From an uncultured Actinomycetes bacterium (GTDB lineage: Bacteria > Actinomycetota > Acidimicrobiia > Acidimicrobiales > RAAP-2), in NCBI GenBank assembly GCA_903825305.1, contig CAIKAC010000002.1:1-64000 (forward strand): a stretch of DNA of 64,000 nucleotides, written 5' to 3'. Positions 36,776-57,545 of the stretch are shown piece by piece (the first letter of the stretch is position 1; every line of letters starts with the position of its first letter). The notes below the pieces were generated by a model. It did not search any database. It worked only from the letters and a program-made list of their open reading frames with translations, and had not been told where the DNA came from. The translations under genes and the position numbers were made by a program.

Positions 36776-37140
36776 GCGACACCTCCCGTCAAGCCCTATC
36801 GGGAAAAGACACCCAGCAAATCACGGTCGATGCTGCCGTGGCGGGGGAGTTGAGTCTTGATGATCTTCGCATTCACCCAGACACGCTGGAATACCAAGCC
36901 ACCCAAGCGCACGCCCATGCCAATCCTCAATTGGCGGCCAACTTTCGTCGAGCAGCGGAACTCACGAGACTGAGCGATGAAGAAGTCCTCGGTCTCTACG
37001 ACATGCTTCGGCCCTTTCGGGCCACTCCGCAAGAGCTTGCCGACAAGGGTGAGGAATTGACTGCTCGAGGTTTGCCTCTCGTGGGGGAGCTCTTTCATGA
37101 AGCGGCTGGCGTCTACGAGCGTCGTCACCTCGGAGCATGA
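36772..37140 (+). CDS. Diol dehydratase small subunit (PduE type)
   Basis: 122 residues. The conserved core is present: LRIHPDTLEYQATQAHAHAN, QLAANFRRAAELTRLSDEEV, LYDMLRPFRATPQELADKG, and the ending LFHEAAGVYERRHLG. It is about 50 residues shorter than enterobacterial PduE because the N-terminal extension is missing. It should complete the dehydratase with the fused subunit, giving an (alpha-beta)-gamma arrangement. It overlaps the preceding gene (ATGA) and the following reactivase (ATGA), so the three are translationally coupled. Confidence 0.9.
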   Translation: MSDTSRQALSGKDTQQITVDAAVAGELSLDDLRIHPDTLEYQATQAHAHANPQLAANFRRAAELTRLSDEEVLGLYDMLRPFRATPQELADKGEELTARGLPLVGELFHEAAGVYERRHLGA

Positions 37141-38852
37141 CGATCTATGCCGGCATTGATGTCGGCAACGCCACCACCGAAATCGTCCTCGTTGAACGCT
37201 CTAACACCGAGCTCAAACTTGTCGGCCATGTCCGAGGCCTCACGAGAGGCAAAAAAGGCTCTCGCTCAAGCCTCCAAGGAGCCGCGTCGTATGTACGTCG
37301 CCTTGAACGCTCACTGGGCGTCAAGGCTGACATCGGTTTTGTGGCTCCGTTACAACCCGTAGAGACCCGATCGCTCAAGGTTGAACTTCCAAACATCGAC
37401 ACAGGCCGCCTCGAAATCCTGGCGAGAGATGTCTCCACGCCTGGCCGAGCCGGAAAGGCGCTTGGCCGACCATTCCTGCTCACCAAGAACGAACCCATAG
37501 ATGACAGAGCTATCAATGATCCCGTTATCGTCATAGTGCCGCGATCGATTGGCTACCGCGAAGCAACCAAAACGATTGGCACGTTGACCTCGAGCGGCAT
37601 CAAGGTAACCGGCGTTGTGGCCGAAGGCGATGAAGGGGTCCTCATCGCCAATCGCATTGACCCAGCCATTGCGGTGCTTGATCAAATCAAGATTGATGGT
37701 CTCGAAGACGCAGCCTTGATCGGTATGGAAGTGGCCGGTCCCGGACAAAGCCTCTCGTTTCTGAGTGATCCGTTGGCTCTGTTTTCTCAATGTGGACTTC
37801 GAGATAGTGAGCGCGACAATGCGACAGCGCTTGCTGGCCAGCTTCTTGATGCGAGCAATGCCGTGGTTGTCCTCCACGACGTCGAAAGAACAAACGAACA
37901 GAATCTCGGAGCGTGGCTCGAGATCAACGGAGCACACCGAGACCTGATTGGCGGTATTGAAGAACTGATGCGCTCTGGCGTTGGGGGAGTCACGAAGATC
38001 AGCCTGGACGGCACTGACGCTGAAGTTTGTGAAGACGCATTCGGAGTTGATCTGGCTGATGTTGCTCGACGAGCTCACATCAGATTGGGCAGTGTCGAAT
38101 CAGGTTCGGTGGTGTTCTCGACCCTCGAACAAGACCCGGAACGCCTCGATCACGCGGCCGTGTTGAGCGAACTCCTCGGGATCCCGGTCACCGTTGCGGC
38201 TAACGAAGCACAAGCGGCTCGAGCTGGCGCGCTCACGACTCCTGGAGCGAGACACGATGCACTTGTGGTGGACCTTGGTGCCGGCACCATCGATGTCATG
38301 ACCGAATCCTCAAGCGATACCGCAGCAGGAGCCGGCGAATTGCTGAGCGCTTGTGTGGCTGAATTACTTGGCGTCACCCGAGCGGCGGCTGATTGGATAA
38401 AACGAGGACCTTCGGTTCGAGTGGAAGCACCACTTCGTTATGAAACAGAGAGTGCTGAGCGAGCCTTCTTTTCAGATCCAGCCCCGGCCGACACGCTCGG
38501 TCGTCTGGCCTGTCCTGGACCCATTGGTCTCATGGGCTTTGACGCCCCGTTGTCTCCGAGCGAATGGAGAGCACTTCGACTCAGCCTCAAAGAACGCGTC
38601 ATCGGCGCCAACGTCAATCGGGTGTTGGCTTCTCATCCTTCTGCCAACACACACGTCATCGTGGTGGGTGGACCAGCAGGTGACGATGAACTCATTGCTG
38701 TGTTGTCTCGCTGCCTGCCCGATGGAGCCGTGGTCGCTCGTGCCAATGTGGGTGCGGACTTCGTCGAACAAGGTCAGCCAACGCTCGACCATCGCTATGC
38801 CGCAGCGCTGGGACTCGTCCTTTTGGGTTTGGCTTCTGAACCTCAGCCTTGA
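37137..38852 (+). CDS. Diol dehydratase reactivase, large subunit (PduG/DdrA type)
   Basis: 571 residues with an ASKHA ATPase core: YAGIDVGNATTEIVLVE at the start, the DdrA-type insert (GRPFLLTKNEPIDDRAINDP), VLDQIKIDGLEDAALIGME, the second phosphate loop ALVVDLGAGTIDVM and VIVVGGPAGDDELI near the end. Reactivases exchange damaged cobalamin for adenosylcobalamin in the dehydratase, using ATP. The usual small partner (PduH/DdrB) is not found in this window. The gene is the last of the run, and its stop overlaps the convergent beta-helix gene by 10 bases. Confidence 0.88.
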   Translation: MTIYAGIDVGNATTEIVLVERSNTELKLVGHVRGLTRGKKGSRSSLQGAASYVRRLERSLGVKADIGFVAPLQPVETRSLKVELPNIDTGRLEILARDVSTPGRAGKALGRPFLLTKNEPIDDRAINDPVIVIVPRSIGYREATKTIGTLTSSGIKVTGVVAEGDEGVLIANRIDPAIAVLDQIKIDGLEDAALIGMEVAGPGQSLSFLSDPLALFSQCGLRDSERDNATALAGQLLDASNAVVVLHDVERTNEQNLGAWLEINGAHRDLIGGIEELMRSGVGGVTKISLDGTDAEVCEDAFGVDLADVARRAHIRLGSVESGSVVFSTLEQDPERLDHAAVLSELLGIPVTVAANEAQAARAGALTTPGARHDALVVDLGAGTIDVMTESSSDTAAGAGELLSACVAELLGVTRAAADWIKRGPSVRVEAPLRYETESAERAFFSDPAPADTLGRLACPGPIGLMGFDAPLSPSEWRALRLSLKERVIGANVNRVLASHPSANTHVIVVGGPAGDDELIAVLSRCLPDGAVVARANVGADFVEQGQPTLDHRYAAALGLVLLGLASEPQP

Positions 38853-40608: not shown

Positions 40609-40685
40609 GCGGCGGTAGCTCAGTGGATTAGAGCATTGGTCTACGGAACCAAGGGTCGGGGGTTCGAATCCCTCTCGCCGCACCA
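40609..40685 (+). tRNA. tRNA-Arg (anticodon ACG)
   Basis: Complete cloverleaf. The acceptor stem GCGGCGG pairs with TCGCCGC (G-T at the last pair). The D-arm is GCTC...GAGC, the anticodon stem TTGGT/ACCAA with loop CTACGGA, and the anticodon ACG at 40643-40645. The T-arm has TTCGAAT. The 3' CCA (40683-40685) is encoded. It marks the left edge of the defence island. Confidence 0.97.
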
Positions 40686-40779: not shown

Positions 40780-41688
40780 ATGGATGCCATAAGAGAGTTA
40801 GCCGTACGCGAAGCGATGTTCAATCACTTGGATGGGCTTCTTGCATCATCGAGCGACGACACGATCCATCGCGACAACACCGCCGAGTTCTCATTCCTTG
40901 GTGAGCGAATCGTCATGCGCCAGCTCTATGGGCGAGGTATTCACAAACCGCAGACATTAAGTGCGGCCCTTTCGATAACCACGACGTTTCGCGCTCCTGG
41001 CGCTAAGAAACCCTATGACGATTCAATTGGGGAAGAAGGCCTTCCAAGGTATAAATACGAAGGCACCGATCCTGATCTTTGGACGAACCAAGCCCTTCGA
41101 CGTGCGATGGAGACCGAACTCCCGCTGGTGTATTTCATCGGAGTTCGACCCGATGCTTTCTTGGTCCGTTATCCAGTTTTTGTCATCGGGGACGACCCGG
41201 CAAGACATGAATTTGTCCTCGGGTTTTCTCGTGCTGACTTTGGTATCGATTTAGCAAAGCTCTCGGCTCCCGAGAAGGTTTATTACGCAAGACTTACCAA
41301 GCAGCGCCTTCATCAGCCTCGATTCCGTCAGCAAATTTTGATTGCCTACGACTCTTCCTGCGCCGTGTGTCGACTGCGACATGAGCGGTTACTTGATGCC
41401 GCCCATATCATTGGAGACTCGGAACTCGGTGGAGATCCAATTGTTCAAAATGGCCTTGCGCTCTGCAAAATCCACCACGCTGCTTTCGACGCTAACTTCC
41501 TTGCGGTGAGGCCAGATTACCGGGTTGAAATCAATAAGAGACTCATGGAAGAAGTAGATGGCCCCATGTTGAAACATGGTCTTCAGGAGATGCATGGAGT
41601 CGAAATTTCAGTCCCTCGATCTCGCAGTTCTCGGCCGGATCCGGAAAGGTTGGCGATTAAGTACCAGGAGTTCCAGAGAGTTTCATGA
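40780..41688 (+). CDS. HNH restriction-type endonuclease
   Basis: 302 residues. Residues ~190-245 are an HNH nuclease with zinc ligands: Cys194-x2-Cys197, LLDAAHIIG (catalytic His209 region), NGLALCKIHHAAFD (Asn224, Cys229, His232/233). Residues ~35-150 form a separate N-terminal domain with the pattern YKYEGTDPDLWTNQALRRAM, PLVYFIGVRPDAFLVRYPVF and VIGDDP, shared by COG3440-type predicted restriction endonucleases. I think it reads the target or its modification. It lies between tRNA-Arg and the phosphorothioation operon on the same strand, 147 bases before sspA. It may cut unmodified invading DNA or sense sulfur-modified DNA; the sequence does not tell. It is clearly less GC-rich than the microcompartment genes. 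Confidence 0.78.
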   Translation: MDAIRELAVREAMFNHLDGLLASSSDDTIHRDNTAEFSFLGERIVMRQLYGRGIHKPQTLSAALSITTTFRAPGAKKPYDDSIGEEGLPRYKYEGTDPDLWTNQALRRAMETELPLVYFIGVRPDAFLVRYPVFVIGDDPARHEFVLGFSRADFGIDLAKLSAPEKVYYARLTKQRLHQPRFRQQILIAYDSSCAVCRLRHERLLDAAHIIGDSELGGDPIVQNGLALCKIHHAAFDANFLAVRPDYRVEINKRLMEEVDGPMLKHGLQEMHGVEISVPRSRSSRPDPERLAIKYQEFQRVS

Positions 41689-41835: not shown

Positions 41836-42960
41836 ATGATTTACCTTGATTACAACGCGACAACTCCTGTTACCCCTAGCGTCCTCGAGGCAATGCTTCC
41901 ATGGTTTAGTGAAACATTTTTCAATGCCGCCTCTGCTCATCAGGGTGGTCGCAGAGCATCACATGCCGTCGATGTAGCTAGGGACCAGATTTCTTCGCTT
42001 CTTCATTGCCGAGCAGGAGAACTCGTCTTTACCTCTGGAGCGACGGAAGCCAATAATTTGGCGCTAAAGGGGTTGCGCAGTGGCGCGTCTCGGATGGTGA
42101 CTGTGGCAACCGAACACAAAGCCGTGCTTGACGTAGCTACGTATTGGTCCGAGCGTGGTCGCCCTGTCACGATTCTCTCCGTTAGTCGAGACGGCTTGAT
42201 CGACTTAGATGAACTCGCCGAAGTAATAGCAGTTGGTGATGTGGGTGTGGTTTCGGTCATGCTGGCAAATAACGAGACTGGGGTAATTCAAGATCTTGCC
42301 CGGATCAGCGAGATCATTCACCAATCTGATGCCCTCTTGCACTGTGACGCGACGCAAGCAGTAGGGAAAATGAAGGTTGACGTTGACGAACTTGGGGTGG
42401 ATCTTCTGTCGCTGTCTGCCCACAAACTGTACGGTCCGAAAGGCGTTGGGGCACTCTTTGTTCGGCGTGGGGTAGAGCTGGGCACGCAGATGCACGGCGG
42501 AGGCCACGAAAACGGGATGCGCAGTGGAACGTTGAATGTCCCCGGGATAGTTGGATTTGGCGCTGCAGCCGAATATGTCGGAGCTCATTTAGAGAATTCG
42601 ATGAAACTGACCGACCTCTTGGATGAATTCACGTCCCACCTCGCGGCGTGTGGTGTGGATTTCGATGTCGTTGCGGCTGGCACCCCAAAATTGCCGAACA
42701 CGATCAATATACGGTTCATCGGTGCAGATGGTGAAGCGGTGATGGTCAATGCGCCTAAGGTCGCAATGTCGTCAGGATCTGCCTGCACCGCTCGGATCCC
42801 GGAGCCTTCGCATGTCCTCACTGCCATGGGATTAAGCCATGCTGAGGCTGAAGAATGTTTGAGGATTAGTTGTGGGATCCCCACGACCGTTGTGGAGATG
42901 CGTGAGGCTGCAGCGTTAGTTGCGCAAGCTGTTACCCGGGTGAAGGAGTTGACGTCGTGA
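41836..42960 (+). CDS. sspA: Cysteine desulfurase of the phosphorothioation system (SspA/DndA type)
   Basis: 374 residues; begins MIYLDYNATTPVTP, the standard start of IscS/NifS/DndA enzymes. PLP lysine is Lys197 in SLSAHKLYGPKG, the cofactor His is in TEHKAVLD (His94), and the sulfur-carrying Cys317 lies in SSGSACTARIPEPSHVL. The enzyme takes sulfur from cysteine as a persulfide and passes it to the PP-loop protein (SspD here). First gene of an 11.5-kb operon in which the next gene starts at its stop (GTGA overlap). An ordinary iron-sulfur-cluster role is possible, but the gene order A-B-C-D fits the Ssp DNA phosphorothioation module. Confidence 0.85.
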   Translation: MIYLDYNATTPVTPSVLEAMLPWFSETFFNAASAHQGGRRASHAVDVARDQISSLLHCRAGELVFTSGATEANNLALKGLRSGASRMVTVATEHKAVLDVATYWSERGRPVTILSVSRDGLIDLDELAEVIAVGDVGVVSVMLANNETGVIQDLARISEIIHQSDALLHCDATQAVGKMKVDVDELGVDLLSLSAHKLYGPKGVGALFVRRGVELGTQMHGGGHENGMRSGTLNVPGIVGFGAAAEYVGAHLENSMKLTDLLDEFTSHLAACGVDFDVVAAGTPKLPNTINIRFIGADGEAVMVNAPKVAMSSGSACTARIPEPSHVLTAMGLSHAEAEECLRISCGIPTTVVEMREAAALVAQAVTRVKELTS

Positions 42961-43946
42961 GGTTTGAAGAGGCATGCGAGGCAGTTTTTGCTCGGCATGA
43001 GACCTTTTATCCCCGCTATGGCTGGGTTAAAAAAGCAGTCGATGCTGCTAGCGCCAATAGCGATCTCTTCAATGATGAGATGGCGGTTGTCGAATTGGGC
43101 GTGGGGAAAAATATGGTTCGTTCAATTCGCCATTGGGGTCTCGCATACAAAATGCTGGCCCAAGAAAAAGAAGAGGGCCGCCGCACTCCGGCAATTATCG
43201 ATTCGACACTTGGTAGGGCCGTTTTCTATGACGCTGGCCTAGACCCTTATGCGGAGTCTCCTGCAACTCCCTGGTTATTGCACTGGTGGCTCCTGGCACC
43301 TCCATCCCTCGCGCCAGTTTGGTGGCTTACGTTTAATGAATTCCCTGGGGTGGAATTCAATGAAGCTCAGCTAACTCAGTTTTTGTTAGAGCGTTGCAAG
43401 GACTGGAATCCCTTGCCGGCGGCCATTCAAAAAGATGTCTCCTGCCTTCTCCGAATGTATGCGGCAGGCGGAGCAGCGCGAATGGGTTTTGATGACTCCA
43501 TAGACTGCCCGTCGCGAGAATTGGGACTTATTCTTCCCACCTCGGAGAGAGGAGTATTTCGGTTTTCGATCGGCGAAAAGCCAACACTTCCCGCCTTGGT
43601 CGTTGCATACGCATGCCTTGATTTCCTAGCAAGAGTTGAAGGGGAAGCTAAGACTGTCATGGTGTCACGATTGGCAACAGAGTCTGGTGGCCCAGGCAGG
43701 GCATTCAAAATCACGGAACCAAATCTCCTTAACTTGCTCGAGATAGCCGAAACCCAAATTAAGGAGATTCACCTTTCAATGTCTGCAGGAGCCCCCCAGC
43801 TCTCCATTGATGGAAACATCGCAGAAATTGGTTCGCGAGTACTAGTTCAGTGCTTGAGCCAAGAAGGCAAAGTCGATTCATTGGATCGGGTACTTTGTGG
43901 CCGCGGTTCTGACCGAGGCGCCAAATCGCAAGTGGGAGCAGCCTGA
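42957..43946 (+). CDS. sspB: DUF4007 protein, probable SspB DNA nickase
   Basis: 329 residues. The N-terminus FARHETFYPRYGWVKKAVDA followed by VVELGVGKNMVRSIRHWGLA is the DUF4007 signature (Phe-x-x-Arg-x-Gly-Trp-x-x-Lys, then the ...GVGKNMV... turn). DUF4007 proteins are the SspB component of single-strand phosphorothioation systems, which nick DNA at the site to be modified. The helical middle (LEWWLLAP-like LLHWWLLAPPSLAPVWWL) also fits. It overlaps sspA by four bases and the ATPase gene by 50 bases if that gene starts at 43897. Confidence 0.82.
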   Translation: MRFEEACEAVFARHETFYPRYGWVKKAVDAASANSDLFNDEMAVVELGVGKNMVRSIRHWGLAYKMLAQEKEEGRRTPAIIDSTLGRAVFYDAGLDPYAESPATPWLLHWWLLAPPSLAPVWWLTFNEFPGVEFNEAQLTQFLLERCKDWNPLPAAIQKDVSCLLRMYAAGGAARMGFDDSIDCPSRELGLILPTSERGVFRFSIGEKPTLPALVVAYACLDFLARVEGEAKTVMVSRLATESGGPGRAFKITEPNLLNLLEIAETQIKEIHLSMSAGAPQLSIDGNIAEIGSRVLVQCLSQEGKVDSLDRVLCGRGSDRGAKSQVGAA

Positions 43947-46900
43947 TCTCGTGACGCGGTTGATTGATCTGAAAGCACCAAAGGCAAGATTTGCCCGGTC
44001 CATCAATGTCGAGCGTGATCGTGATGGGGACGCTATTGATGGATACCTGCCAGTTGGAAGGGCGATTGATGTCATCCAACGATTTGCCACCGCATTGGAT
44101 CGTGACGACGTTGAAGTTGCCATTTCGGTCACCGGACCTTACGGGTCCGGCAAGTCAAGCTTGGCAGTGTTGCTGAGCGCACTATTGGCTCCTCGCCACA
44201 ACGCCTCTCGCCAAGCAGCTGAGGAACTTCTTGGTTCTGCCGCCCCCGAAGCGCTTGCAAACATCCAATCTGCGAGGCAAAAACTCAATGCCGATCAATT
44301 TGGCTTTATTCGTTGTGTGGCAACGGCCCAAAGGGAGTCAGTCGCGAGCACCGTGGTGCGTGCTTTGACCAACGGTGTGGCTGAGTTCGATCCGCCAAAA
44401 GCCCAAAAGCCAGCTCTTGCAAAAATTTTCAAACGTCTCGAAGACATGGCCACCGCGTTGGATTCAGAATCTGAGGAAAATCCTTCCACTCGCGACATCA
44501 GGAATGTTGTTTCGGCGCTTGGTGAAATTGCCCCCGTGTTTTTGTTGATCGATGAGTTTGGCAAGAATCTTGAAGCATTCACGGACTCCAAGAGTGATGC
44601 TGATCTCTTCTTGCTGCAAGAACTTGCTGAATGGTCACGAGGCGGCGATGGCATACCGCTAGCCCTAGTGACGTTGCAGCACATGGCTTTTGACGAGTAT
44701 GCGGATAATGCAACTGCTTCACAACGCAGGGAGTGGGCCAAGATACAGGGCCGATTTGAAGACATCCCCTTTGTGGACAGTGCAGCACAAACGCGGTCGT
44801 TAATTTCTGCGTCATTTGACTTGTTAGAGCCGAGCGTGACCTCGGCGCTCGACGAGTGGTCTCGCGCGGTGTCTCGCGATCTAGCGAATCTTGGTCTTTT
44901 AGACCTAGCGCAATCTCCCGAGCTCCTCGCTCATTGTTGGCCCCTGCATCCGGTGTCGCTCCTCGTTCTCCCAGAGCTCTGTGAGCGATATGGGCAAAAC
45001 GAGCGCACTCTCTTTTCCTTCCTCGCGGGCCACGAACCGCTTAGTGTGGCGAGCTTTCTTCGCGAACAGGTTTGGGATGGAGAAGTCGGCACGTCACTCG
45101 TTCGTCTTGATCGTCTCTATGACTACTTCATTGAATCCGCAGCAAACTTGGTATCAGTATCTGCCAACGCCTCACGATGGATTGAGATCGACATGCGGAT
45201 CCGCGACGCGACGGGCCTGAGTCAAGCATCTCAACGAGTTTTGAAAACAGTTGGCGTCCTGAACTTGGTTTCCGCTGGGGGTGCACTGCGAGCCACCTCG
45301 TCTGTGGTTGCCAACGTGGCTGCGGACGGGCGCGAAGGAACGGAAACCGCTGAGGCAATCGCTGAACGCTTAACTGAACTTGAAGGTTTGGGATTTCTAA
45401 CTTTTAGAGATTTCGCCGATGAGTATCGAATTTGGCAGGGGAGTGATTTTGATCTCAGGTCAGAGGTGGATCTCGCGAGAAGGCGACTGCAGGATGTAGC
45501 GCCAGATCAAATTCTCAACCAAGTTCTACAAATGTCACCAATGATTGCCGCTCGTCACAGTTACAAAACGGGCACGTTACGAGCATTCGAGAGGCGCTGG
45601 ATAAGCGCCCTGACTACAGAGATCGTGCCACCGGGTGCGGCTGATCGATATGACGGGCTGATTTTGTACATGATCGGGGATTCTGTTCCTTCCGACAAAT
45701 TGAATCAGAGAGCAAAGCCGGTGATGTTTGTTCGGGCCCACGGTATGGAGCGCTTATTGCAGGCTGCTCGTGAAGAAGCCGCGCTGACTCAAGTAATTTC
45801 GACGTCAGAGAGTCTTGGCGAAGACTGGGTGGCTCGCAGGGAACTGCTGGAGCGTAGGGTCGAATCCCATGCTCAGCTTCGATCAGTTTTCAACGAACTA
45901 TTTCAATCCGACCATGCCATGTGGACCTGGCAGTCCCCCGACGGAGCATGGATGGACATCACGCAAACGTCTCCGTCGGCATTGATCTCCCAGGTTTGTG
46001 ATGAGTGGTACGACAAAGCCCCGGTCATCAAGAATGATTTAGTAAATCGTCACGATCTTTCTTCACAAGCGGCCAAGGCGCGACGAGTCTTGGTGGAGGC
46101 AATGTCTTCAAAAGGTTCGCAAGAAGGCCTAGGGATCGATGGATTCGGACCCGAACGAACGCTATATCTCTCCGTGCTCCAAGAGTTCGGCTTGCATCAG
46201 ACCAAAGACGGAGAAAGCGCTTTTCGATCGCCATCTGGTGCAAACAAAACGCTTGTCCCTGTGTGGAAGCATCTTCAAGCAATTTTCAAAAAAGCGCGAA
46301 GTGAGCGAGTTCGAGTAAGTGATATCTATCTCGAACTCGCGATGCCGCCCTATGGCATTCGTGAAGGCATTGCTCCCGTCATTGTTGTGGCAGCACTGAT
46401 CGTCCAGGCTGGTGAAGTTGCTCTTTACGAGCATGGGACGTTCCGACCGGCTTTGACGAACGACGTCGTCGAACGGTTACTGAAAAACCCAGGGAATTTT
46501 GAAATCAAGCACTATGGCGCAAAGTCTGGTGTTCGTTCTGAATTTGTTGCTGCGTTGATGAATGAATTTTCGATACGTCCAAGAGTTCAGCGTAACTCCG
46601 AGCAGTTCGGAAGTGTGCTTGCAGTGACTTCCAAATTTGTGCTCACCATGAACATGCTCCCTGACTACTCAAGGAAGACCTTGAGTCTTTCGCCTCGCGC
46701 ACTTGGTCTCAGGAAGTTGATCGCTACCGCCACTGAACCTGACGAATTATTGTTCAACGAAATTCCAAAACTGTTCTTGCGCGAACCCATCGCCCCTGAA
46801 GCAAAGATCAGCGGCACGGAGCTTGCCCTGCTTGCAAAGCAGGTTCGGGAGGCATCGCTGGAATTTGAGAATGCCTTTCCCAAACTGGTAAGAAAAATGA

Positions 46901-47409
46901 AGGCAGAGGTTAAGAAGCGAATTGGGCCAGACTGCTCACCACTGCAACAAGTATTGGGTGGCAGAGCGAAGGCCATAGAAGGAAAGATTGTTGATCCTGA
47001 ACTGAGGCACCTTGTTGCCGCCCTCAAGGCTGAAATTGATGGGGAAGAGGGGTGGCTTGAATACATTGGACTTCAGGTGTCGGGTGTGCCGCCGCGGAGC
47101 TGGAACGATGTTGATGTCAATCGTTTCTTCGTTGAACTTGAACGGTTGGGGGCGGCCTTTAGGCGTACCTATGCCTTAAATACCGAGATGGCAGCGATTA
47201 CGGAAGGCGACCTCATCATTCGAACAACCTTCACCAAGCCAGGTGGGCGGGAAATGGTGGACTTGATAGCGGTCAATAAGGAAGTTCGAGCGAAAGCGGA
47301 ACCAGCGCTACAAAAGGTTGTGGCTGATTTTGCGAAGACCTTGGGCGAGAACCCCGAGGTGGCACGCATGACCTTGTTGGCGCTGTTGGCCGACCAAAAG
47401 TTTGATTGA
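43897..47409 (+). CDS. sspC: Large P-loop ATPase, probable SspC
   Basis: 1170 residues from the GTG at 43897; an in-frame GTG at 43951, just after the sspB stop, is a good alternative that removes the 50-base overlap. Walker A is TGPYGSGKSSLAVLLS (residues ~79-94) and Walker B is PVFLLIDEFGKNLE. The rest is a long mostly helical region with conserved-looking segments LFSFLAGHEPLSVASFLRE and YLELAMPPYGIREGIAPVIV (phosphorothioation-type ATPases and BREX-like large ATPases share such segments). Position between the DUF4007 nickase and the PP-loop protein makes SspC the best call. It would supply the energy and DNA remodelling for sulfur insertion. Confidence 0.78.
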   Translation: MAAVLTEAPNRKWEQPDLVTRLIDLKAPKARFARSINVERDRDGDAIDGYLPVGRAIDVIQRFATALDRDDVEVAISVTGPYGSGKSSLAVLLSALLAPRHNASRQAAEELLGSAAPEALANIQSARQKLNADQFGFIRCVATAQRESVASTVVRALTNGVAEFDPPKAQKPALAKIFKRLEDMATALDSESEENPSTRDIRNVVSALGEIAPVFLLIDEFGKNLEAFTDSKSDADLFLLQELAEWSRGGDGIPLALVTLQHMAFDEYADNATASQRREWAKIQGRFEDIPFVDSAAQTRSLISASFDLLEPSVTSALDEWSRAVSRDLANLGLLDLAQSPELLAHCWPLHPVSLLVLPELCERYGQNERTLFSFLAGHEPLSVASFLREQVWDGEVGTSLVRLDRLYDYFIESAANLVSVSANASRWIEIDMRIRDATGLSQASQRVLKTVGVLNLVSAGGALRATSSVVANVAADGREGTETAEAIAERLTELEGLGFLTFRDFADEYRIWQGSDFDLRSEVDLARRRLQDVAPDQILNQVLQMSPMIAARHSYKTGTLRAFERRWISALTTEIVPPGAADRYDGLILYMIGDSVPSDKLNQRAKPVMFVRAHGMERLLQAAREEAALTQVISTSESLGEDWVARRELLERRVESHAQLRSVFNELFQSDHAMWTWQSPDGAWMDITQTSPSALISQVCDEWYDKAPVIKNDLVNRHDLSSQAAKARRVLVEAMSSKGSQEGLGIDGFGPERTLYLSVLQEFGLHQTKDGESAFRSPSGANKTLVPVWKHLQAIFKKARSERVRVSDIYLELAMPPYGIREGIAPVIVVAALIVQAGEVALYEHGTFRPALTNDVVERLLKNPGNFEIKHYGAKSGVRSEFVAALMNEFSIRPRVQRNSEQFGSVLAVTSKFVLTMNMLPDYSRKTLSLSPRALGLRKLIATATEPDELLFNEIPKLFLREPIAPEAKISGTELALLAKQVREASLEFENAFPKLVRKMKAEVKKRIGPDCSPLQQVLGGRAKAIEGKIVDPELRHLVAALKAEIDGEEGWLEYIGLQVSGVPPRSWNDVDVNRFFVELERLGAAFRRTYALNTEMAAITEGDLIIRTTFTKPGGREMVDLIAVNKEVRAKAEPALQKVVADFAKTLGENPEVARMTLLALLADQKFD

Positions 47410-47488
47410 ACCGGTGGCAATCAGGGGTAATGTCACAGCAAGGGCCTAGGATTAATCAGGAAAAAGGTCTTTCGAAAGGGCGAAAAGT

Positions 47489-48325
47489 ATGCGAAATGTA
47501 TGCGGCATTTCAGGCGGGAAAGATTCCAGCGCCCTGGCAATTTATCTCCGAGAATCAGTTCCAGACATGGAGTACTTCTTTTGCGACACCGGAGCCGAAC
47601 TCCCCGAGACGTATGACTATCTGAATCGCCTTGAAGTCGTTTTGGGAAAACCAATTGCACGACTCAATCCCGACAAGGGTTTTGACCACTGGTTTGAGGT
47701 ATATCGAGGAACCCTGCCGTCACCTCAAATGCGGTGGTGCACGAGGCAGATGAAAATCAAGCCCCTCGAAGATTGGCTAGGGGACGATGAGGCAGTTTCA
47801 TACGTGGCGATTCGTGCTGACGAAAAAAACCGTAAAGGCTATGTTTCCACCAAGCCAAATATTTCAGCGGTATTTCCTTTTATCGAAGACGACATTGACC
47901 ACGATGGAGTCTTAAGAATCCTCGATGAGGCTGGTCTCGGGCTTCCTGATTATTACTCCTGGCGAACCCGGTCAGGTTGTTATTTCTGCTTCTATCAGCG
48001 CAAAGCCGAATGGGTCGGGCTCTCTGAGCGCCATCCTGATCTTTTCGAAAAAGCTGTTGCGATTGAAAACAAGTTGCTTGTGGACGCCGGAGATGCGGGA
48101 GGTGCTGACTACTCAGCACTGGGCATGAGGGAAAGGCAGTTCACTTGGTCGCAGGGTGAATCGCTTCTCGAGCTTGTTGGCAGGAAAGTCGAAATCAAGG
48201 CAAAGCATGAAATTGCCATGGAGCGAGCACGGGCTCGACGCAAGAACATCCCACTCATAGAAGTGTTGGCTGATGCCCTTGATGAAGATGACGATTCACC
48301 AGCTTGCGCGGTTTGTGCACTGTAA
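47489..48325 (+). CDS. sspD: PP-loop sulfurtransferase-type enzyme, SspD (DndC-like)
   Basis: 278 residues; ATG 47489 with GAAAGGG (47474-47480). PP-loop SGGKDSSAL (8-16) for ATP pyrophosphatase activity, PAPS-reductase-like core (FCDTGAELPETYDYL, PQMRWCTRQMKIKPL). Cys84, Cys164 and Cys167 (SGCYFCFYQ) are candidate ligands of an iron-sulfur cluster as in DndC; two more cysteines end the protein (ACAVCAL). The enzyme should adenylate the DNA backbone so sulfur from SspA can replace a non-bridging oxygen. It closes the modification module; the helicase gene follows after a few bases. Confidence 0.87.
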   Translation: MRNVCGISGGKDSSALAIYLRESVPDMEYFFCDTGAELPETYDYLNRLEVVLGKPIARLNPDKGFDHWFEVYRGTLPSPQMRWCTRQMKIKPLEDWLGDDEAVSYVAIRADEKNRKGYVSTKPNISAVFPFIEDDIDHDGVLRILDEAGLGLPDYYSWRTRSGCYFCFYQRKAEWVGLSERHPDLFEKAVAIENKLLVDAGDAGGADYSALGMRERQFTWSQGESLLELVGRKVEIKAKHEIAMERARARRKNIPLIEVLADALDEDDDSPACAVCAL

Positions 48326-48334
48326 GGCCTAGTG

Positions 48335-50428
48335 ATGCTTCGAGATGAACCAAGTATTCGAGCGCGGATTTACCATCTCCCACGAGATCCGCTGGTATCG
48401 GAAATCTTGGTACCCGCTATGCGACAATCTGTTTGCGTAAGAGGTGCCTTCGGATGGTTTTCCGCTGGCTGGATTCCGTACCTTGCACCAGGCCTCGCAG
48501 AATTCCTCACTCGGCCCGATAGTGATCGTTTGAAAATGGTGGTGTCTCCGGCACTTTTCCCGGAGGAGCTCGAAGTCTTGACCTCTGTTGTTGAATCTCG
48601 AGAAGTCGCCATGGTCGCCTTCTCCCGGATTCTCGAGGAAGCGGGTGGTATTAACGAAGACGTACTAGCACGACACGCCCTCGAATGTCTCGCGTGGCTA
48701 TTCGCATCCGGTCGCCTTGAACTTCGGATTGCTGTGCCGAAACCAGGCTCGAATTATCACCCCAAAATATGGGAATTTTCAGATGACTCGGGGGACGTCA
48801 TCACTGTCCTTGGTTCTGCAAACGCGACAAGCCGAGCATTTCTCGCTGCGGAACACATGCAAGTTGAATGTTCTTGGGACCGCCCACTCAATGTTGAAAC
48901 AGCGGAAAGAATGATCGACGGCTGGTGGGCGGGGGATGATGATGCACTTCAAGAAACAATTCCACTTTCAAAGGCAGTTGAGCAGCAGTTGTTAGCTGTA
49001 ACTCCCGAAACTGCGCCCACCCAACAGGATTTCCAAGATGCATGGAACATGGAGATTTGGAAAATGACATTGAGCTCAGAGACATCCTCTGGTCCGGTTT
49101 TCCGTATTCCGCCAGAACTCAAGTGGCAGACGGGTAAATACTCACATCAAGGCGAAGCTGTGATTGCGTGGGAAGCAGCAGGCAGGCGCGGAATCCTTGA
49201 GATGGCAACGGGCGCCGGAAAGACCATCTCGGCACTGATCTCAGCGTACCGAACAAGCCAAGTTCACCAAGGGCCTCTGTTTGTAATGATCAGTGCTCCA
49301 ACAGGTGCTCTTGTCTCCCAATGGGATTCAGAGTGCAGACGGTTCGGCCTCGAACCAGTCATACCTGTTGAATTTAGAGGGGTAAATCGTCGAGTGGCCA
49401 TTTCTCATATCTTTGATCGGCTTCGAAACGCGGGAGATGGACACGTCGAGGCCATGATCGTTTCCAATTCCTTGCTTCGAATGGGAGATTTCCAGGATGC
49501 AATCAAGCGTGAGGCAATAATGACGCCGGCTCTTGGGCTTCTACACATTGGCGACGAGGCACACGGCTTAGGAGCAGAAGGATTCATTTCGAATCCGCCA
49601 GACTTTTTCGAATATCGACTTGGGCTTTCAGCTACTCCTGATCGCCAGTATGACGATGATGGAACTGTGAAACTGAAGGAATACTTCGGTGAGACTGTCT
49701 ACGAATTCGGTTTGGATAGGGCAATTGGGTTTTGCCTTGTGCCCTACGACTACTTCATTCACGTCGTGCACCTCGACATAGAAGAACTTGATGAGTACCG
49801 TCGGTTAACTGCCGTTGCCATGGCTGCCTTATCAAGAGGCGACGAAGAGGCGCAAAGAAACGCTCTGATTAAGCGTCGGTCAGTAATTGAAAGTACGGGT
49901 AGTAAGATTCCCGCTCTCGAGACCATTCTGCGAGGTCAACGGCCCCGTCATTTGCTGGTATACACATCAGCAAAGAACCCTGAGCAATTGCCGATGGCAA
50001 AAAATATTCTTGACCAACTCGGAATTGATTCGGCAGTTGTAACGGAGGAGCAATCGAAAAATCCCGAACTCCTCAAATCAATCCTCGATTCATTTGCGGA
50101 GGGTGATATAGACGCTCTTATCGCCAAAAAAGTTCTTGACGAAGGCGTGGACATTCCCGCTACGCGGGAGGCAGTTCTAGTCGCTTCATCGACAGTTGCA
50201 CGAGAATGGATTCAACGCCGCGGTCGAGTCCTCAGAATGGCTCCCGGTAAGGATTTTGCGGTTATTCATGACATTGTCGCAGTTCCACCCCCGACATTGG
50301 ATTTCGACTCTGGCACATTTAGTATTGTGAGGTCTGAGTGTGATCGAGTTCGCGAATTTGCGAAATATGCTCGAAACGCTAATGATGTTTTTGGGCAAGT
50401 AGAGGAGCTCCTTAATGGCTACCAATAA
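48335..50428 (+). CDS. PLD-domain SF2 helicase of the Ssp-linked cassette
   Basis: 697 residues (ATG 48335, with AAGG seven bases upstream; GTG 48332 also possible). Residues ~60-200 form a phospholipase-D-like domain with one HKD-type motif: NYHPKIWEF then VLGSANATSRAF. Residues ~270-690 are an SF2 helicase: Walker A ATGAGKT, box II IGDEAHGLGAEG (DEAH), motif III LGLSATPDR, and motif VI REWIQRRGRVLRMAPGKD. PLD-helicase proteins are common nucleases in defence loci. Here it follows sspD by nine bases in the same operon. I take it as part of the restriction side, comparable in position to the SspFGH module known for some Ssp systems. Which of F, G or H it equals I cannot say. Confidence 0.82.
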   Translation: MLRDEPSIRARIYHLPRDPLVSEILVPAMRQSVCVRGAFGWFSAGWIPYLAPGLAEFLTRPDSDRLKMVVSPALFPEELEVLTSVVESREVAMVAFSRILEEAGGINEDVLARHALECLAWLFASGRLELRIAVPKPGSNYHPKIWEFSDDSGDVITVLGSANATSRAFLAAEHMQVECSWDRPLNVETAERMIDGWWAGDDDALQETIPLSKAVEQQLLAVTPETAPTQQDFQDAWNMEIWKMTLSSETSSGPVFRIPPELKWQTGKYSHQGEAVIAWEAAGRRGILEMATGAGKTISALISAYRTSQVHQGPLFVMISAPTGALVSQWDSECRRFGLEPVIPVEFRGVNRRVAISHIFDRLRNAGDGHVEAMIVSNSLLRMGDFQDAIKREAIMTPALGLLHIGDEAHGLGAEGFISNPPDFFEYRLGLSATPDRQYDDDGTVKLKEYFGETVYEFGLDRAIGFCLVPYDYFIHVVHLDIEELDEYRRLTAVAMAALSRGDEEAQRNALIKRRSVIESTGSKIPALETILRGQRPRHLLVYTSAKNPEQLPMAKNILDQLGIDSAVVTEEQSKNPELLKSILDSFAEGDIDALIAKKVLDEGVDIPATREAVLVASSTVAREWIQRRGRVLRMAPGKDFAVIHDIVAVPPPTLDFDSGTFSIVRSECDRVREFAKYARNANDVFGQVEELLNGYQ

Positions 50429-50666
50429 CACCGAGAGTGGAATCTCAATTAACTCAAAGGCGATCACATCTGCAGTTGATCAAATTATCCAGAAGCACTT
50501 CAGTGACATGCCTCCTGCCCTGCAGGTCTCTCTCAAGGATGCAGCCTTGAACTGTATTTCGGACGAGATGGATCATGCTTTAAATCCAAGCAATATCAAT
50601 CAGACTTTTGCGAAGCGGCTGGACCTCTTGGTCGAAGAATCTAAAAAAGCGGGGTATGGATCATGA
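50415..50666 (+). CDS. Small helical protein in the Ssp-linked cassette
   Basis: 83 residues, no family recognised. It is predicted mostly helical (AITSAVDQIIQKHFSD, LQVSLKDAALNCISDEMDHA, TFAKRLDLLVEESKKA), acidic, with no signal or membrane span. It begins inside the last 14 bases of the helicase gene and overlaps the ATPase gene by four bases (ATGA), so it is co-translated with both. This tight wedging suggests a subunit or adaptor of their complex. The function is unknown. Confidence 0.7.
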   Translation: MATNNTESGISINSKAITSAVDQIIQKHFSDMPPALQVSLKDAALNCISDEMDHALNPSNINQTFAKRLDLLVEESKKAGYGS

Positions 50667-52876
50667 AGATTCGCTTCGAGGCACTCGAGCTCGAGAACTT
50701 TGCAATCTACCCGCACGTTGAAGTTGAATTCAGCCTCGACGACGCGATGCCACTCACTCTTATTCGGGGCGAAAACAATTCAGGCAAAACAACCCTCATG
50801 CGTGCATTTATTTGGATTCTGTTCGGAGAAAGCCACGTGCCGGCCCTTGCGGATTCCACTCACCCCATCCGACCCGCATGGGCTGAACAGAAAGCAATAC
50901 AAACGAAGGGTGTACTGAAGTTTCGGGTGGAGCAACCAAACGGAGATGTTGTTCTTTACAAGCTGATCCGCAAGGGACGTACACGTGTTGAGAGTCGGCC
51001 TGGAAAGCCTGACAAAGTGATCTACGACAATGACGAATTAGACCTCTTCAGAAATGTTCCGGGGGCTGGGTTTCAAAAGGCAAATGACCGGCTAGCCGCT
51101 CTTCAACTCCGCTATTTCCCCGACGATATTCGGGAGTTCATTCTGATCGATGCCGACAAGGCGGAAGATCTCGTCGGGGGTTCAGCTGCAAATCACAATC
51201 TGCAATTAATGCGAAAGACCACCACGACAGCGGTCCGTTCTCTTTTGGGGCTCGAACCTATGCGCCGCTCTGGCGAGCGAATTCGTAGGATTGGATCTGA
51301 CTTAATGGCGAAGGCGGCCCGGAATTCTGGGGATAAGGACCTCACGCGTCTTGCTGATGAAGAAGAGAAGGTTGCGATGGCAGTCAAGGAGCAGAACGCC
51401 ATCGTTACGCAGTTGGAAGGCGAAGTTGAAAGACTGGGTAGTGAAGTTCGAGACACGCGCCTAAATCGGGACTCTCAATTCCGTGAGCATGACGAAATTC
51501 AATCGGTCGCTCGTGATCTTGAGATAAAGAAGGTAAATCGGAAAAATTTAATCGATCTCCGCACTCGGCAGATCGCTTCTCTTAGCACATCACTTTTGTC
51601 GGAACGCGGGCTGGGTCTTCTGCTCGCACCCGCTCTGGCAGATGTTGTCACCACACTCGATCCTCTCAAAATTGAGGGAAGAATTCCTGCATCTGAGATT
51701 TCACTACTTCCTCGACTTCTTAGAGATGACGAGTGTGTATGTGGTCTGAAGTTTTCTGAACATCCCGATCGAAGAGCCGAAGTGGAACGTCGCATTGAAC
51801 TCTCGAGCCCCAGAAAAGCGGAGGCGAATTTTGGAGACCAATGCCTCGAAACAGCGCGAGACATCCTCAATCGAAGCCTTGGACCCGGTGCTACCGGCTG
51901 GATTGAGGAAATTACAGAGTTTCGAACCAACCTAGGGGATACCGACCGAAAACTTTTGTCAATCGATGCTGAAATAGAGCGGCTGGAAAAGGAAATATCA
52001 GAGAAAAGCAAGTCAGAAATAGGAGTCCTCTCTGAGTTGGCAAAAGCATTTGATACCTTGACTGAGACGTACCGAGATCGTGAGCGCAAACTCGAAACTG
52101 CTCGAAGCCTTTTGAAGCAAGCTCAATCGGACCAGCGATCAGTCTCTGAAGGACTTAGATTGGCGAGGACCAAATCTAAGGATCTTGCCCATAATCAAAA
52201 TTTGGCGAAGTTTGCTGAGAACCTGGCAATTGTGATCGATGGAGCGCGGGAAATCATCGAGAGCGAAGAAGTCTCAAAAATTGATGAGACAGTCAATACC
52301 ATTTTCATGGAAGTTGTGGGCGCCACGGAAGGAAGTCTCTACAAGCACGTAGGAATAAGATCAACTCCAGAAGACCATGAAATTTTTGAGCCATATGTTG
52401 AGGGTTCTTCTGGAGAGGATCGACCTCTTTCAATTTTGAATGGAGCTTCACGACGAGCAGTTTCCACAGCAGTAGTTCTCGCACTGTCGGAGGTGACCGG
52501 CACCTCCATCCCTTTTGTCGCAGACTCACTTCTCCACGCGACGTCTGGCGCCGTAAAGCGGCGATTGGTTGACTACCTCACAAGTGGCAAACAAGTAGGA
52601 CAGCCGATCCTGTTCGCCACGCGCGATGACCTTCTCGCCGACCGAGAAAATGATGAGGTCGTCACAGTGAAGGAAATTGTGAAAGCGCGAGCAGGGAAGA
52701 CTTACACAGTCACCAGCCAAGCTGATGGCGACATTGTTAACAGGGATCTGAACGCGGAGCATCCTCAGCAGTCTGTTTTGTGTCTATGCGGACCAGATGA
52801 GTTTTGTAACGTCTGCGAGCGTAAAGGCGATGTTAAGGCAAAGCACCTCATCTCCGTGAAAGAGAGCAACCGATGA
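50663..52876 (+). CDS. Rad50/DndD-like SMC-type ATPase
   Basis: 737 residues. Walker A GENNSGKTTLMRAFIW (residues ~34-49) follows the EALELENFAIYPHVEVEFS start typical of RecF/Rad50/DndD proteins. Long coiled-coil segments (~220-300 and ~440-540) flank a zinc-hook-like CVCGLKF. The C-terminal half has a signature-like stretch RPLSILNGASRRAVSTAVVL and a Walker B region IPFVADSLLHATSG in which the usual Glu is not obvious. The end carries a second cysteine cluster, CLCGPDEFCNVC, possibly zinc-binding. DndD and related proteins couple ATP use to DNA structural change. Placed after the helicase, it is likely the motor of the restriction cassette. Confidence 0.8.
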   Translation: MKIRFEALELENFAIYPHVEVEFSLDDAMPLTLIRGENNSGKTTLMRAFIWILFGESHVPALADSTHPIRPAWAEQKAIQTKGVLKFRVEQPNGDVVLYKLIRKGRTRVESRPGKPDKVIYDNDELDLFRNVPGAGFQKANDRLAALQLRYFPDDIREFILIDADKAEDLVGGSAANHNLQLMRKTTTTAVRSLLGLEPMRRSGERIRRIGSDLMAKAARNSGDKDLTRLADEEEKVAMAVKEQNAIVTQLEGEVERLGSEVRDTRLNRDSQFREHDEIQSVARDLEIKKVNRKNLIDLRTRQIASLSTSLLSERGLGLLLAPALADVVTTLDPLKIEGRIPASEISLLPRLLRDDECVCGLKFSEHPDRRAEVERRIELSSPRKAEANFGDQCLETARDILNRSLGPGATGWIEEITEFRTNLGDTDRKLLSIDAEIERLEKEISEKSKSEIGVLSELAKAFDTLTETYRDRERKLETARSLLKQAQSDQRSVSEGLRLARTKSKDLAHNQNLAKFAENLAIVIDGAREIIESEEVSKIDETVNTIFMEVVGATEGSLYKHVGIRSTPEDHEIFEPYVEGSSGEDRPLSILNGASRRAVSTAVVLALSEVTGTSIPFVADSLLHATSGAVKRRLVDYLTSGKQVGQPILFATRDDLLADRENDEVVTVKEIVKARAGKTYTVTSQADGDIVNRDLNAEHPQQSVLCLCGPDEFCNVCERKGDVKAKHLISVKESNR

Positions 52877-53382
52877 GACTTGCACCGTTCACCGCAAAAC
52901 AAAGTCGGCTTTACCTTCCTCAAAAGAATCGCGACATTGCAAAAGATCGCTGGGTACAACAGCAACAAACCAAGACCCATCAAAGCATCAACGATGCGCC
53001 CTTTCCCAGAATGATCGATTTCTGGTTTGCTTCAATCGTGGTGGCTGCGGGTGATGAATTGCCACTTCCAAAGAAAGTCGGAGGCGTCCACTTTGTGACT
53101 GTCGGTCCGAATAAGAGCGACGTGCAGAGATTCCCCGACTTTTGGGCTCAAGCTTTAACCTTGCTTGCCGTAAAGACATGGGGTTACGACAACCCCGCGT
53201 GCACCGAACCCACCGAAGTGATTGCTCTCGGCAACCTCTTTGCGGAAGTCGGATCGTCGCCGCTTCTCGATGCCCTTGAACAAAGTTCGGATATGGCGAG
53301 TGCTCGGCTCTATGTCCTAGCGGATATCTTTACCGACAAGGCGGCAGTTATTTTGGATCGTTACAAAAAGAACGCATTTTAA
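52873..53382 (+). CDS. Uncharacterised protein closing the Ssp-linked cassette
   Basis: 169 residues, no family recognised with certainty. The N-terminus is basic and rich in Gln/Lys (FTAKQSRLYLPQKNRDIAKD). The core looks alpha-helical with KVGGVHFVTVGPNKSDVQRF and a helix-rich half (PLLDALEQSSDMASARLYVL). Small basic proteins at the end of phosphorothioation operons include DndE-like DNA-binding subunits, but I see no DndE signature. It overlaps the ATPase gene by four bases, so it belongs to the operon. Its stop overlaps the convergent HNH-repeat gene by four bases. Confidence 0.68.
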   Translation: MRLAPFTAKQSRLYLPQKNRDIAKDRWVQQQQTKTHQSINDAPFPRMIDFWFASIVVAAGDELPLPKKVGGVHFVTVGPNKSDVQRFPDFWAQALTLLAVKTWGYDNPACTEPTEVIALGNLFAEVGSSPLLDALEQSSDMASARLYVLADIFTDKAAVILDRYKKNAF

Positions 53383-54319: not shown

Positions 54320-55924
54320 CTAAATACCGAGCGTATTTAAGGTCCTTCTTGAACCAACGACTGCCAACGTATCAATGGCTCTACTGATTCCGGCATAGAG
54401 CAACCGTAGGTGTTCGTACTCATCGGAAATTGGTTTGAGAGAAACCAGAATCACTTCAGGCACGTCCAAGCCTTTGAGCCGTCTGACGGTCTCACACACC
54501 ACGGTGGCGCCTTCTTCATCCCAGGCCCGCAGGCCCATCACCTCTCGTAAGTGGTCACGCTCTTGGCGAGAGGTCGTCAGCACCCAAATATCCGATGAAG
54601 CTCGTTCGCTGCGCTCTAAGAGCTGATCAACGACGGCCGTCATCTGATCAAGATCAGACACTTCTGCCTTTTTGATGGATTCATGGAGGGGGAATCTGTC
54701 GGCTGATGCCCCAGCACCTTGGAAGCGGCGCTTCATAAATTCAGCGATGTGGGGAGCATTGCGATAATTACTCGTTAACTCCGCCATGGCCCACCCTTGG
54801 TCATTGTTGGGGAGTTGTGCTCCAGCACCACGGACATCTTGATAGGGATCGCCGACCATCAGGATTTTGCCCTTTCCGTCCTTCGGCAGGAGGCGTTCCA
54901 GTACCGCAATCCATCGTTCGTCAAAGTCTTGGGCTTCATCAACAATGATGGTGTCGAACTGTTCGGCAAAGGTGCCCGATGACGTGAAACACAACTGCGT
55001 CATTGACTCCCAGTAGGGGGACAGGTCTTCATTCTCTTCTGGCTCTCGCCATTCGAGACCCAATTGATATTCGAGGTGTCGAAGAATGGGCGCAACGGTT
55101 AAGTCGCCTTCTTGGTAACTCAATTGCTCCTGGAGGTCGATGGCCAAGGGATCGTTGTAACAGGTAACCAGAACTCGATCACCACGTCGCAGCGCCCGTT
55201 GGGCCCATGCGAGCGCAAGTCGGGACTTGCCGCTTCCCGCACCTCCCGTCACGATGGCTCGGTTATTGATGTCAAGGCTTTCGAGAACTTGAGTCTCAAG
55301 CAGCATGCGTTGTTCGAGCTGGGCGTGGGCAACCTTGCGCAGTCCTTCCACCGAGTTGTCAAAGTCAGCACTGGGGCAGAGTTCATCCAAGATCAACTTG
55401 AAGGCGTGTTCTCCGAGAAAAAAAGTTCTTTTATCGATAGAACAGAGCTCATCAATCCATCTCGGGATGTTTGCGAGTTTTCCTGAGTCAAGAATTTGAA
55501 TCGTTCGATAACCAGCCGGCAAGGTACCGGTGATCTCTACCGTGGCAGGAGAAGCAATCACTCGTCGGATCTTGTTGTAGATGTCTCTGTCTATGTGGAG
55601 GAGTGCTTCAGTGAGTACTTCTCGCTGCGCTTGAAGTTGGCGAGTTGGATCCTTGTCGAGTTTTTTGTCTTCACGGATTTTGTAAAACTCGCCATCACGT
55701 ATTGCGAAGGCGGATTTGACTTCAATTAGCACCATGCCATGTTCGGGGTGGATGAGAAGAATGTCCGCTTCTCGTTCTTTAAAGGAATTTTGGAGCAGGA
55801 GCTCGATATTTGGGATGATGACCCAGCCAGCATCGAGACCATAAAGCAGGCGCTCGTACGCTTTGAATTCAGAGTCGTGTTTAAAGTCTTCACGACTTCT
55901 CATGGGTCGGGAGATTGCTGGCAT
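54320..55924 (-). CDS. NERD-domain UvrD-like helicase
   Basis: 534 residues. Residues ~15-120 are a NERD nuclease-related domain: FKAYERLLYGLDAGWVIIPN, KEREADILLIHPEHGMVLIE VKS-type motif (Asp and Glu-x-Lys positions of the PD-(D/E)XK fold). Residues ~215-530 are an SF1A helicase: Walker A VTGGAGSGKSRLALAW, Walker B TIIVDEAQDFDERW, GDPYQDVRG, ELTSNYRNA and the final YAGISRAIDTLAVVG. It probably unwinds and cuts DNA or acts in defence; NERD helicases recur in phage-defence islands. Transcribed alone, opposite to both flanking genes. A 10-bp palindrome TACCTAGGTA (55934-55943) lies right before its start. Confidence 0.85.
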   Translation of the reverse strand: MPAISRPMRSREDFKHDSEFKAYERLLYGLDAGWVIIPNIELLLQNSFKEREADILLIHPEHGMVLIEVKSAFAIRDGEFYKIREDKKLDKDPTRQLQAQREVLTEALLHIDRDIYNKIRRVIASPATVEITGTLPAGYRTIQILDSGKLANIPRWIDELCSIDKRTFFLGEHAFKLILDELCPSADFDNSVEGLRKVAHAQLEQRMLLETQVLESLDINNRAIVTGGAGSGKSRLALAWAQRALRRGDRVLVTCYNDPLAIDLQEQLSYQEGDLTVAPILRHLEYQLGLEWREPEENEDLSPYWESMTQLCFTSSGTFAEQFDTIIVDEAQDFDERWIAVLERLLPKDGKGKILMVGDPYQDVRGAGAQLPNNDQGWAMAELTSNYRNAPHIAEFMKRRFQGAGASADRFPLHESIKKAEVSDLDQMTAVVDQLLERSERASSDIWVLTTSRQERDHLREVMGLRAWDEEGATVVCETVRRLKGLDVPEVILVSLKPISDEYEHLRLLYAGISRAIDTLAVVGSRRTLNTLGI

Positions 55925-57423: not shown

Positions 57424-57545
57424 AGACTTCAGATCGAAGGTGAAGGCGGGAACCACTGCCATTTTGGGGTCCGACCAATTCCATTAAATAGTTTGCGAGT
57501 CTCCCAAGCCATTTGTTGTTACAGCCTTGGTTTAGGGTGTCTCGC

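Follow-up and report, generated by a model that had tools for sequence, protein, structure and literature searches.

An operon in an uncultured Actinomycetes bacterium pairs SspABCD modification genes with a PbeABCD-type restriction cassette

Composition of the operon

The 64,000-nt stretch of DNA analysed here (hereafter the window; contig CAIKAC010000002.1, positions 1–64,000, assembly GCA_903825305.1, from an uncultured Actinomycetes bacterium) contains, at 41836–53382, an eight-gene operon that is a composite of two known modules, the SspABCD genes for phosphorothioate (PT) modification and the PbeABCD restriction genes; no report of their pairing was found in the papers searched. The identities of SspA to SspD, PbeA, and PbeC are firm, and those of PbeB and PbeD are indirect. 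The eight open reading frames (ORFs), all on the forward (+) strand, were confirmed with the ORF list and translations at the coordinates given in an earlier note made from the DNA letters of the window. That note had also placed four further genes behind SspABCD in the same operon, which is borne out by the successive gaps from sspA to the eighth gene (−4, −50, +79, +6, −14, −4, and −4 nt), as overlapping and closely spaced genes fit a single eight-gene operon. A pattern scan for promoters and terminators gave no clear excess over shuffled sequences (7 vs. 8.6 and 15 vs. 13.1).

The modification module is complete in the order desulfurase, DUF4007 protein, large ATPase, and PP-loop enzyme, as the earlier note had proposed and as PADLOC hidden Markov models (HMMs) and Pfam now support. 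The first gene, sspA (41836–42960), encodes a 374-residue cysteine desulfurase (Aminotran_5) that matches PADLOC SspA at 3.3e-133, with DndA a close second at 6.3e-130. It is followed by sspB (42957–43946), for a DUF4007 DNA-binding protein of 329 residues (PADLOC SspB, 1.2e-92; PF13182, 2.9e-77), of which characterised homologues have been described as nickases in the published accounts considered here. The 1170-residue ATPase encoded by sspC (43897–47409) contains the Walker A motif GPYGSGKSS and matches PADLOC SspC with an E-value of 0 and 1102.6 bits (vs. 385.3 bits for BrxC), and sspD (47489–48325) encodes a PP-loop enzyme of 278 residues resembling PAPS reductase, with an SGGKDS motif (PADLOC SspD, 2.2e-111; PF01507).

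Gene by gene and in the same order, the second four can be equated with PbeABCD. In Haloterrigena jeotgali A29, pbeABCD has been described as encoding a PLD-type nuclease-helicase, a 66-residue protein, an AAA-type ATPase, and a 152-residue protein (Xiong 2019, PMC6459918). This DndCDEA–PbeABCD system is the same as the CxC ABC ATPase system of Rakesh et al. (2024, PMC10853773), who read the four products as an HKD nuclease fused to an SF2 helicase, a small and mostly disordered protein, a CxC-hook ABC ATPase, and a DndE cognate. The gene order and sizes of the window cassette fit those of H. jeotgali (83 vs. 66 residues for PbeB; 169 vs. 152 for PbeD). The cassette is thus not of a new kind, and the proposal made in the earlier note of a variant PT-based defence holds at the level of gene content.

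The first gene of the cassette, pbeA (48332–50428), encodes an HKD (PLD-type) nuclease fused to an SF2 helicase, 698 residues in length (PADLOC PbeA, 1.2e-157). The protein also matches the NCBIfam model TIGR04095 (dnd_restrict_1) at 6.1e-95 and 318.9 bits, below the model cut-off of 600, and contains the Pfam domains ResIII and Helicase_C, with the HxK, GSxN, Walker A, DEAH, and QRRGR motifs all intact. In the aligned columns of the 33-row PbeA clade described below, HxK and GSxN are present in 30 of the 30 rows that extend to them (L042, L047, and L050 fall short), whilst 33 of 33 have Walker A, DExH, and QR[RL]GR. The 737-residue product of pbeC (50663–52876) is a CxC-hook ABC ATPase of the type found in that clade (PADLOC PbeC, 2.3e-36, vs. 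DndD, 2.8e-16). The zinc-hook-like cysteines previously noticed in this Rad50/DndD-like ATPase are real, being located in a CVC motif at residues 358–360; Cys358 and Cys360 are invariant in a nine-row alignment, and a CxC hook was found in 81 of 82 PbeC proteins (the exception, L010, spaces the cysteines as CxxC), as against 0 of 21 DndD controls (residues 200–500).

The two remaining proteins, which the earlier note could not assign to a family, are placed as PbeB and PbeD by position, size, and clade alignments, and in the case of PbeD also by a predicted DndE-like fold. The product of pbeB (50415–50666), a predicted small helical protein of 83 residues, is alignable with 20 candidates from the clade at low identities of 9–18%, and its AlphaFold2 (AF2) model consists of three helices (predicted local distance difference test, pLDDT, 70). 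For the 169-residue product of pbeD (52873–53382), considered DndE-like from its fold and position, two ribbon-helix-helix units are predicted; its AF2 model shows two β-α-α units and a C-terminal helix (pLDDT, 84). The best match of this model in VIA-align was Escherichia coli DndE (4lrv_E; Z, 7.0, a middling value; rmsd, 3.5; 101 of 102 residues), followed by a chain of the F-plasmid relaxosome (Z, 5.8). The family model TIGR04062 matches PbeD of 8 of 25 clade members, the window's PbeD not being among them.

Comparison with known systems

The operon shares with archaeal DndCDEA–PbeABCD the four restriction genes in the same order, the adjoining PT genes, the HKD-helicase, the CxC hook, and a fourth gene whose product is predicted to be DndE-like. 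It differs in the writer, which is SspABCD here (acting in known cases on one strand at CCA) and DndCDE in the archaeal case (GATC), in the altered ABC signature and additional C-terminal cysteine cluster of PbeC, and in PbeB and PbeD, which match no library model in the window.

The position of the cassette after the Ssp module, and the fact that both cassettes include an ATPase, would favour a divergent SspFGH module, to which the earlier note had likened the cassette, and the SspABCD–SspFGH system of Vibrio anguillarum FF-93 (Wang 2021, PMC8092258) does share with the window the modification module and a multi-gene restriction cassette. As described there, however, SspFGH comprises three genes, which resemble no annotated ones apart from a Walker A motif in SspF and an FtsK/SpoIIIE-like end of SspH, whereas the window cassette comprises four and no shared family was found. 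In the HMM comparison, none of SspF, SspG, and SspH occurred among the 21 families listed for PbeA or the best 25 of 85 for PbeC, and PbeB and PbeD matched no PADLOC family at all; nor did the listed matches of the four proteins include an FtsK/SpoIIIE family. With the gene count and the strong matches to PbeA and PbeC given above, the SspFGH identity was rejected, and we regard it as having hardly any probability.

The SspABCD–SspE system (Xiong 2020) has the same modification module and, according to the parts of the literature considered, a one-gene effector homologous to DUF262-DUF1524 proteins, of which there is none in the window operon. The absence of SspE from the operon, as first noted from the sequence, was supported by PADLOC, with no SspE match among the eight proteins. 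Elsewhere in the same genome, two SspE models gave weak matches (best E-value, 1e-11) at G000:C9:249-1859, a 759-residue frame matched at both ends on a contig different from that of the Ssp–Pbe operon; the same two models also respond in 6 and 7 of 14 control genomes. Type 4 BREX is similar in that BrxC/SspC, PAPS reductase, and DUF4007 are described as homologous (PMC12839542), and differs in that no PglZ or BrxL family was found in the ten neighbouring proteins scanned and that the SspC score is far above that of BrxC.

Phylogeny of PbeA and subtype of PbeC

A PbeA tree of 91 rows was constructed with a quick IQ-TREE run (unrooted, with SH-aLRT support only), in which the PbeA of the window is located in a 33-row clade (SH-aLRT, 100) containing 27 Ssp-coupled, six unassigned, and no Dnd-coupled rows. 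The clade spans nine named phyla, and its Ssp rows come from eight of these. Two more Ssp sets are found elsewhere in the tree, one of 12 rows, mostly Bacillota (support, 83), and one of four alphaproteobacterial rows (support, 100). At minimum, three changes between Ssp and Dnd are required when the unassigned rows are left aside, and the Ssp label needs nine if unassigned is treated as a state of its own; the tree being unrooted, the direction of these switches cannot be deduced.

The PbeC proteins of the clade have two marks of their own. The first is [NF]GA[SNA]xR at the ABC signature (FGA in L038 and NGA in the others), where other PbeC proteins are often STGExQ- or SAGERQ-like; the second is a C-terminal CxCx5CxxC (a spacer of 4 to 6 was allowed in the count, and is five in the printed rows), a putative zinc-type cysteine cluster. 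In the window, PbeC has NGASRR at the signature and the C-terminal sequence CLCGPDEFCNVC. Among the clade rows in which PbeC is nearly complete, 31 of 31 have both marks, as against 0 of 50 rows outside, counts that are descriptive because the patterns were written from the alignment, the clade itself being defined on PbeA, a separate protein. The two marks are also present in G051, a locus from the window's phylum that has no tree row of its own and was assigned to the clade by likeness. Excluded from the counts were 8 of the 58 tree rows outside the clade, and also L037 and L050, whose PbeC is truncated or split. The PbeC subtype is thus confined to the Ssp-linked clade.

Recurrence of the pairing

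A PbeA search of GTDB contigs gave at least 414 relatives among at least 585 pattern matches, and the 80 most similar to the PbeA of the window were labelled with Ssp, Dnd, and methyltransferase (MTase) profiles built for this analysis. SspB/SspC was found in 40 of these loci, a proportion that gives no rate for Pbe at large because the loci were chosen by that similarity; DndC/DndE was found in 23, an MTase seed family in one, and none of these in 16, among which three carry an SspD-like gene (L019, L020, and L036). When plasmid loci and the window are included, the 43 Ssp-coupled loci consist of 27 with tandem Ssp–Pbe, 12 convergent, three Pbe–Ssp, and one divergent. A Sphingomonadaceae plasmid (L004) has all eight genes in the identical order, and G051 (= L114) repeats that order for the seven genes identified by profile, with a 289-nt gap at the expected place of pbeB; in this locus and in the ten Clostridia-phylum loci mentioned next, the search covered the genes other than pbeB.

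Three phylum samples were compared using DUF4007. In that of the window, the domain occurs in 8 of 396 genomes and PbeC adjoins in two (the window's genome and G051), the stretches L117 and L119 being short. The sample from the phylum of the Mesorhizobium genome that carries L021 has the domain in 10 of 398 genomes, and the one from the phylum of the Clostridia genome that carries L065 has it in 31 of 398. Among the 30 loci besides the centre in the last sample, at least 10 have PbeA, a CxC-bearing PbeC (split in two ORFs in L162), and PbeD beside Ssp, which is a lower bound because several stretches (L147, L159, L160, L161, L163, and L166) are short and L148 holds PbeA fragments only. The ten PbeC proteins are without the altered signature and the C-terminal marks. 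The Ssp–Pbe pairing is therefore frequent in one of the samples and infrequent in others.

Some loci encountered in this survey have further features. In L127 (15316–16989), L133 (15175–16845), and L137 (11774–13402), helicase-like proteins of about 540–560 residues with weak likeness to PbeA are encoded near SspBCD without PbeC, and similar weak matches occur in L132 and L136, where the stretch ends within them; these five Mesorhizobium-phylum loci were not counted as Pbe because no PbeC lies alongside, and their helicase-like proteins are possibly another Ssp partner. A second Pbe cassette, complete or partial, precedes the first beside Dnd genes in L055, L063, and L082. A DndB-like protein of about 420–435 residues recurs near PbeD in the Ssp-coupled loci L020 (which retains SspD alone within the stretch analysed), L023, L027, L087, and L093. 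The Clostridia-phylum loci L170 and L171 may contain fused, BREX-4-like genes.

The locus is situated in a low-GC island by a tRNA gene, among other nuclease and helicase genes, and Ssp and Pbe could thus be mere neighbours in a defence island, with PbeABCD acting alone or with another modification. Also in favour of this explanation, 155 of 320 solitary pbeAC were reported near methyltransferase genes (PMC6459918), and 6 of the 33 clade rows are without SspB/SspC in the stretch analysed. Three of the six, however, are the loci with an SspD-like gene named above, two (L014 and L042) reach the contig end on one side, and L041 is the only one in which the nearest ~9.5 kb are free of Ssp genes. 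Since, in addition, the genes overlap or nearly touch, the pairing is seen in several arrangements and phyla, and the PbeA clade combines 27 Ssp and no Dnd rows with PbeC marks of its own, we consider mere neighbourhood distinctly improbable.

Proposed mode of action

We consider it highly probable that SspABCD–PbeABCD is a composite PT restriction–modification operon with its parts working as follows, the PT chemistry, the motif, and the antiviral action of the window operon being inferred by analogy with characterised systems. SspA would draw sulfur from cysteine and hand it to SspD, and SspB together with SspC would attach the sulfur to a single strand of the DNA within a short motif, which in characterised Ssp systems is 5'-CPSCA. 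PbeC and PbeD would scan DNA and read its PT state, and unmarked incoming DNA would trigger PbeA, so that replication of the invader stops; PbeB may be a regulator or an adaptor. In the archaeal system, pbeB, pbeC, and pbeD were reported as required and pbeA partly so, and PbeABCD was described as acting only with PT and as not toxic without it (PMC6459918). No cleavage of viral DNA was observed in the experiments described there, and Rakesh et al. argue from the HKD domain for cleavage (PMC10853773). The latter authors also propose altruistic killing as an alternative for CxC/Pbe systems, in which PbeA would cut the DNA of its own cell on sensed infection, PbeB would be a restrained trigger, and PT-marked DNA would not be spared. 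However, PT-modified SNJ1 virus is reported to escape archaeal PbeABCD (PMC6459918), which fits better with self/non-self discrimination; altruistic killing is thus rather unlikely. More tentatively, and at a little under an even chance, we propose that SspABCD has in PbeABCD a third restriction partner, which is widespread and has become coupled to it in at least three separate regions of the PbeA tree. On this view, a specialised PbeC in the window clade, with its diverged ABC signature and additional C-terminal cluster, would together with PbeD recognise single-strand PT at the Ssp motif, a design of reader unlike those of SspE, SspFGH, and Dnd-type Pbe.

Several points weigh against a composite PT restriction–modification operon, in addition to the selection of the 80 loci by likeness described above. 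We know of no PT chemistry or phage test for the Ssp–Pbe pairing. Distances of PbeA and SspC correlate in the clade (Mantel-type r, 0.38; n = 25; equalled in 0 of 1000 permutations) and in other Ssp loci (r, 0.64; n = 14), more than those of PbeA and DndC (r, 0.23; n = 24), which counts in favour of the composite but is confounded with host relatedness. None of the nine loci besides the centre in the Mesorhizobium-phylum sample has PbeC beside Ssp, and on plasmids only two of the 60 SspB records among the matches listed (77 matched) are also among the 29 PbeA records. As for the small proteins, PbeB gave no HMM match above noise and the window's PbeD no direct match in the PADLOC, NCBIfam, and Pfam libraries. 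Foldseek returned nothing significant for PbeD (DndE at an E-value of 6.7), hhalign of PbeD against DndE was not significant, and the PbeD profile found no match among PDB sequences; since the VIA-align Z-score is middling as well, the basis of the DndE-like assignment is the fold, the position, and the matches of other clade members to TIGR04062.

No description of the Ssp–Pbe pairing was found in the papers searched, with supplements, Krishnan 2020, and Xiong 2020 outside the scope of that search. One study tallies PT-modifying genes together with pbeA–D by genus in human-associated strains (PMC7464106), and Ssp–Pbe pairs may lie in its data, because ssp and dnd are not separated in the tallies considered. 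Wang 2021 (PMC8092258) reported 2,211 of 2,678 sspBCD modules (printed as 83.9%) with neither sspFGH nor sspE and asked if there are other restriction counterparts. Our results suggest that PbeABCD is a candidate restriction partner for part of these partnerless modules, and only for part, given that it was often found beside Ssp in one sample and seldom elsewhere. If this is true, the Pbe cassette would be a plug-in effector for two PT writers, Dnd and Ssp, besides methyltransferases; the marks of PbeC point to parts that may have adapted to a one-strand mark, and the candidacy of PbeABCD is testable with existing laboratory strains and phages.

Genomic surroundings

The operon is contained in an island (40609–60928) bounded by a tRNA-Arg(ACG) gene (40609–40685, + strand, identified with ARAGORN) at the left edge and by rsgA, with a GC content of 51.2% compared with 58.3% in the left flank. 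In a genome of the same family, G401 (L124), about 50 bp separate tRNA-Arg(ACG) from rsgA, so that the ~20 kb between them in the window look inserted. An SspC match was found in two genomes of the 61 relatives searched, the window's own and G366. Library scans found no integrase family among the island proteins scanned, and no convincing attachment-site repeats were found around the island.

Directly upstream of sspA lies an HNH_2 gene (40780–41688, + strand; 302 residues; PF13391) whose membership in the system is uncertain; its product may be a PT/Pbe accessory, as homologues occur in three other Pbe loci (L036, L071, and L009). Further genes of the island encode a homing-type repeat protein, a DUF2130 protein, and two candidate defence proteins, namely a NERD-helicase (54320–55924, − strand; RTasNERD-Hel-like, 2.9e-29) and a nuclease-helicase of 1127 residues (57513–60896, + strand; RNase_H_2/AAA, with partial MkoA/MkoC matches at 3e-39). 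To the left of the island, the window encodes a 1398-residue protein with collagen-like repeats (374–4570; PF01391) and, at 34535–38852, a diol/glycerol dehydratase with a fused large/medium subunit and a small subunit, together with its reactivase.

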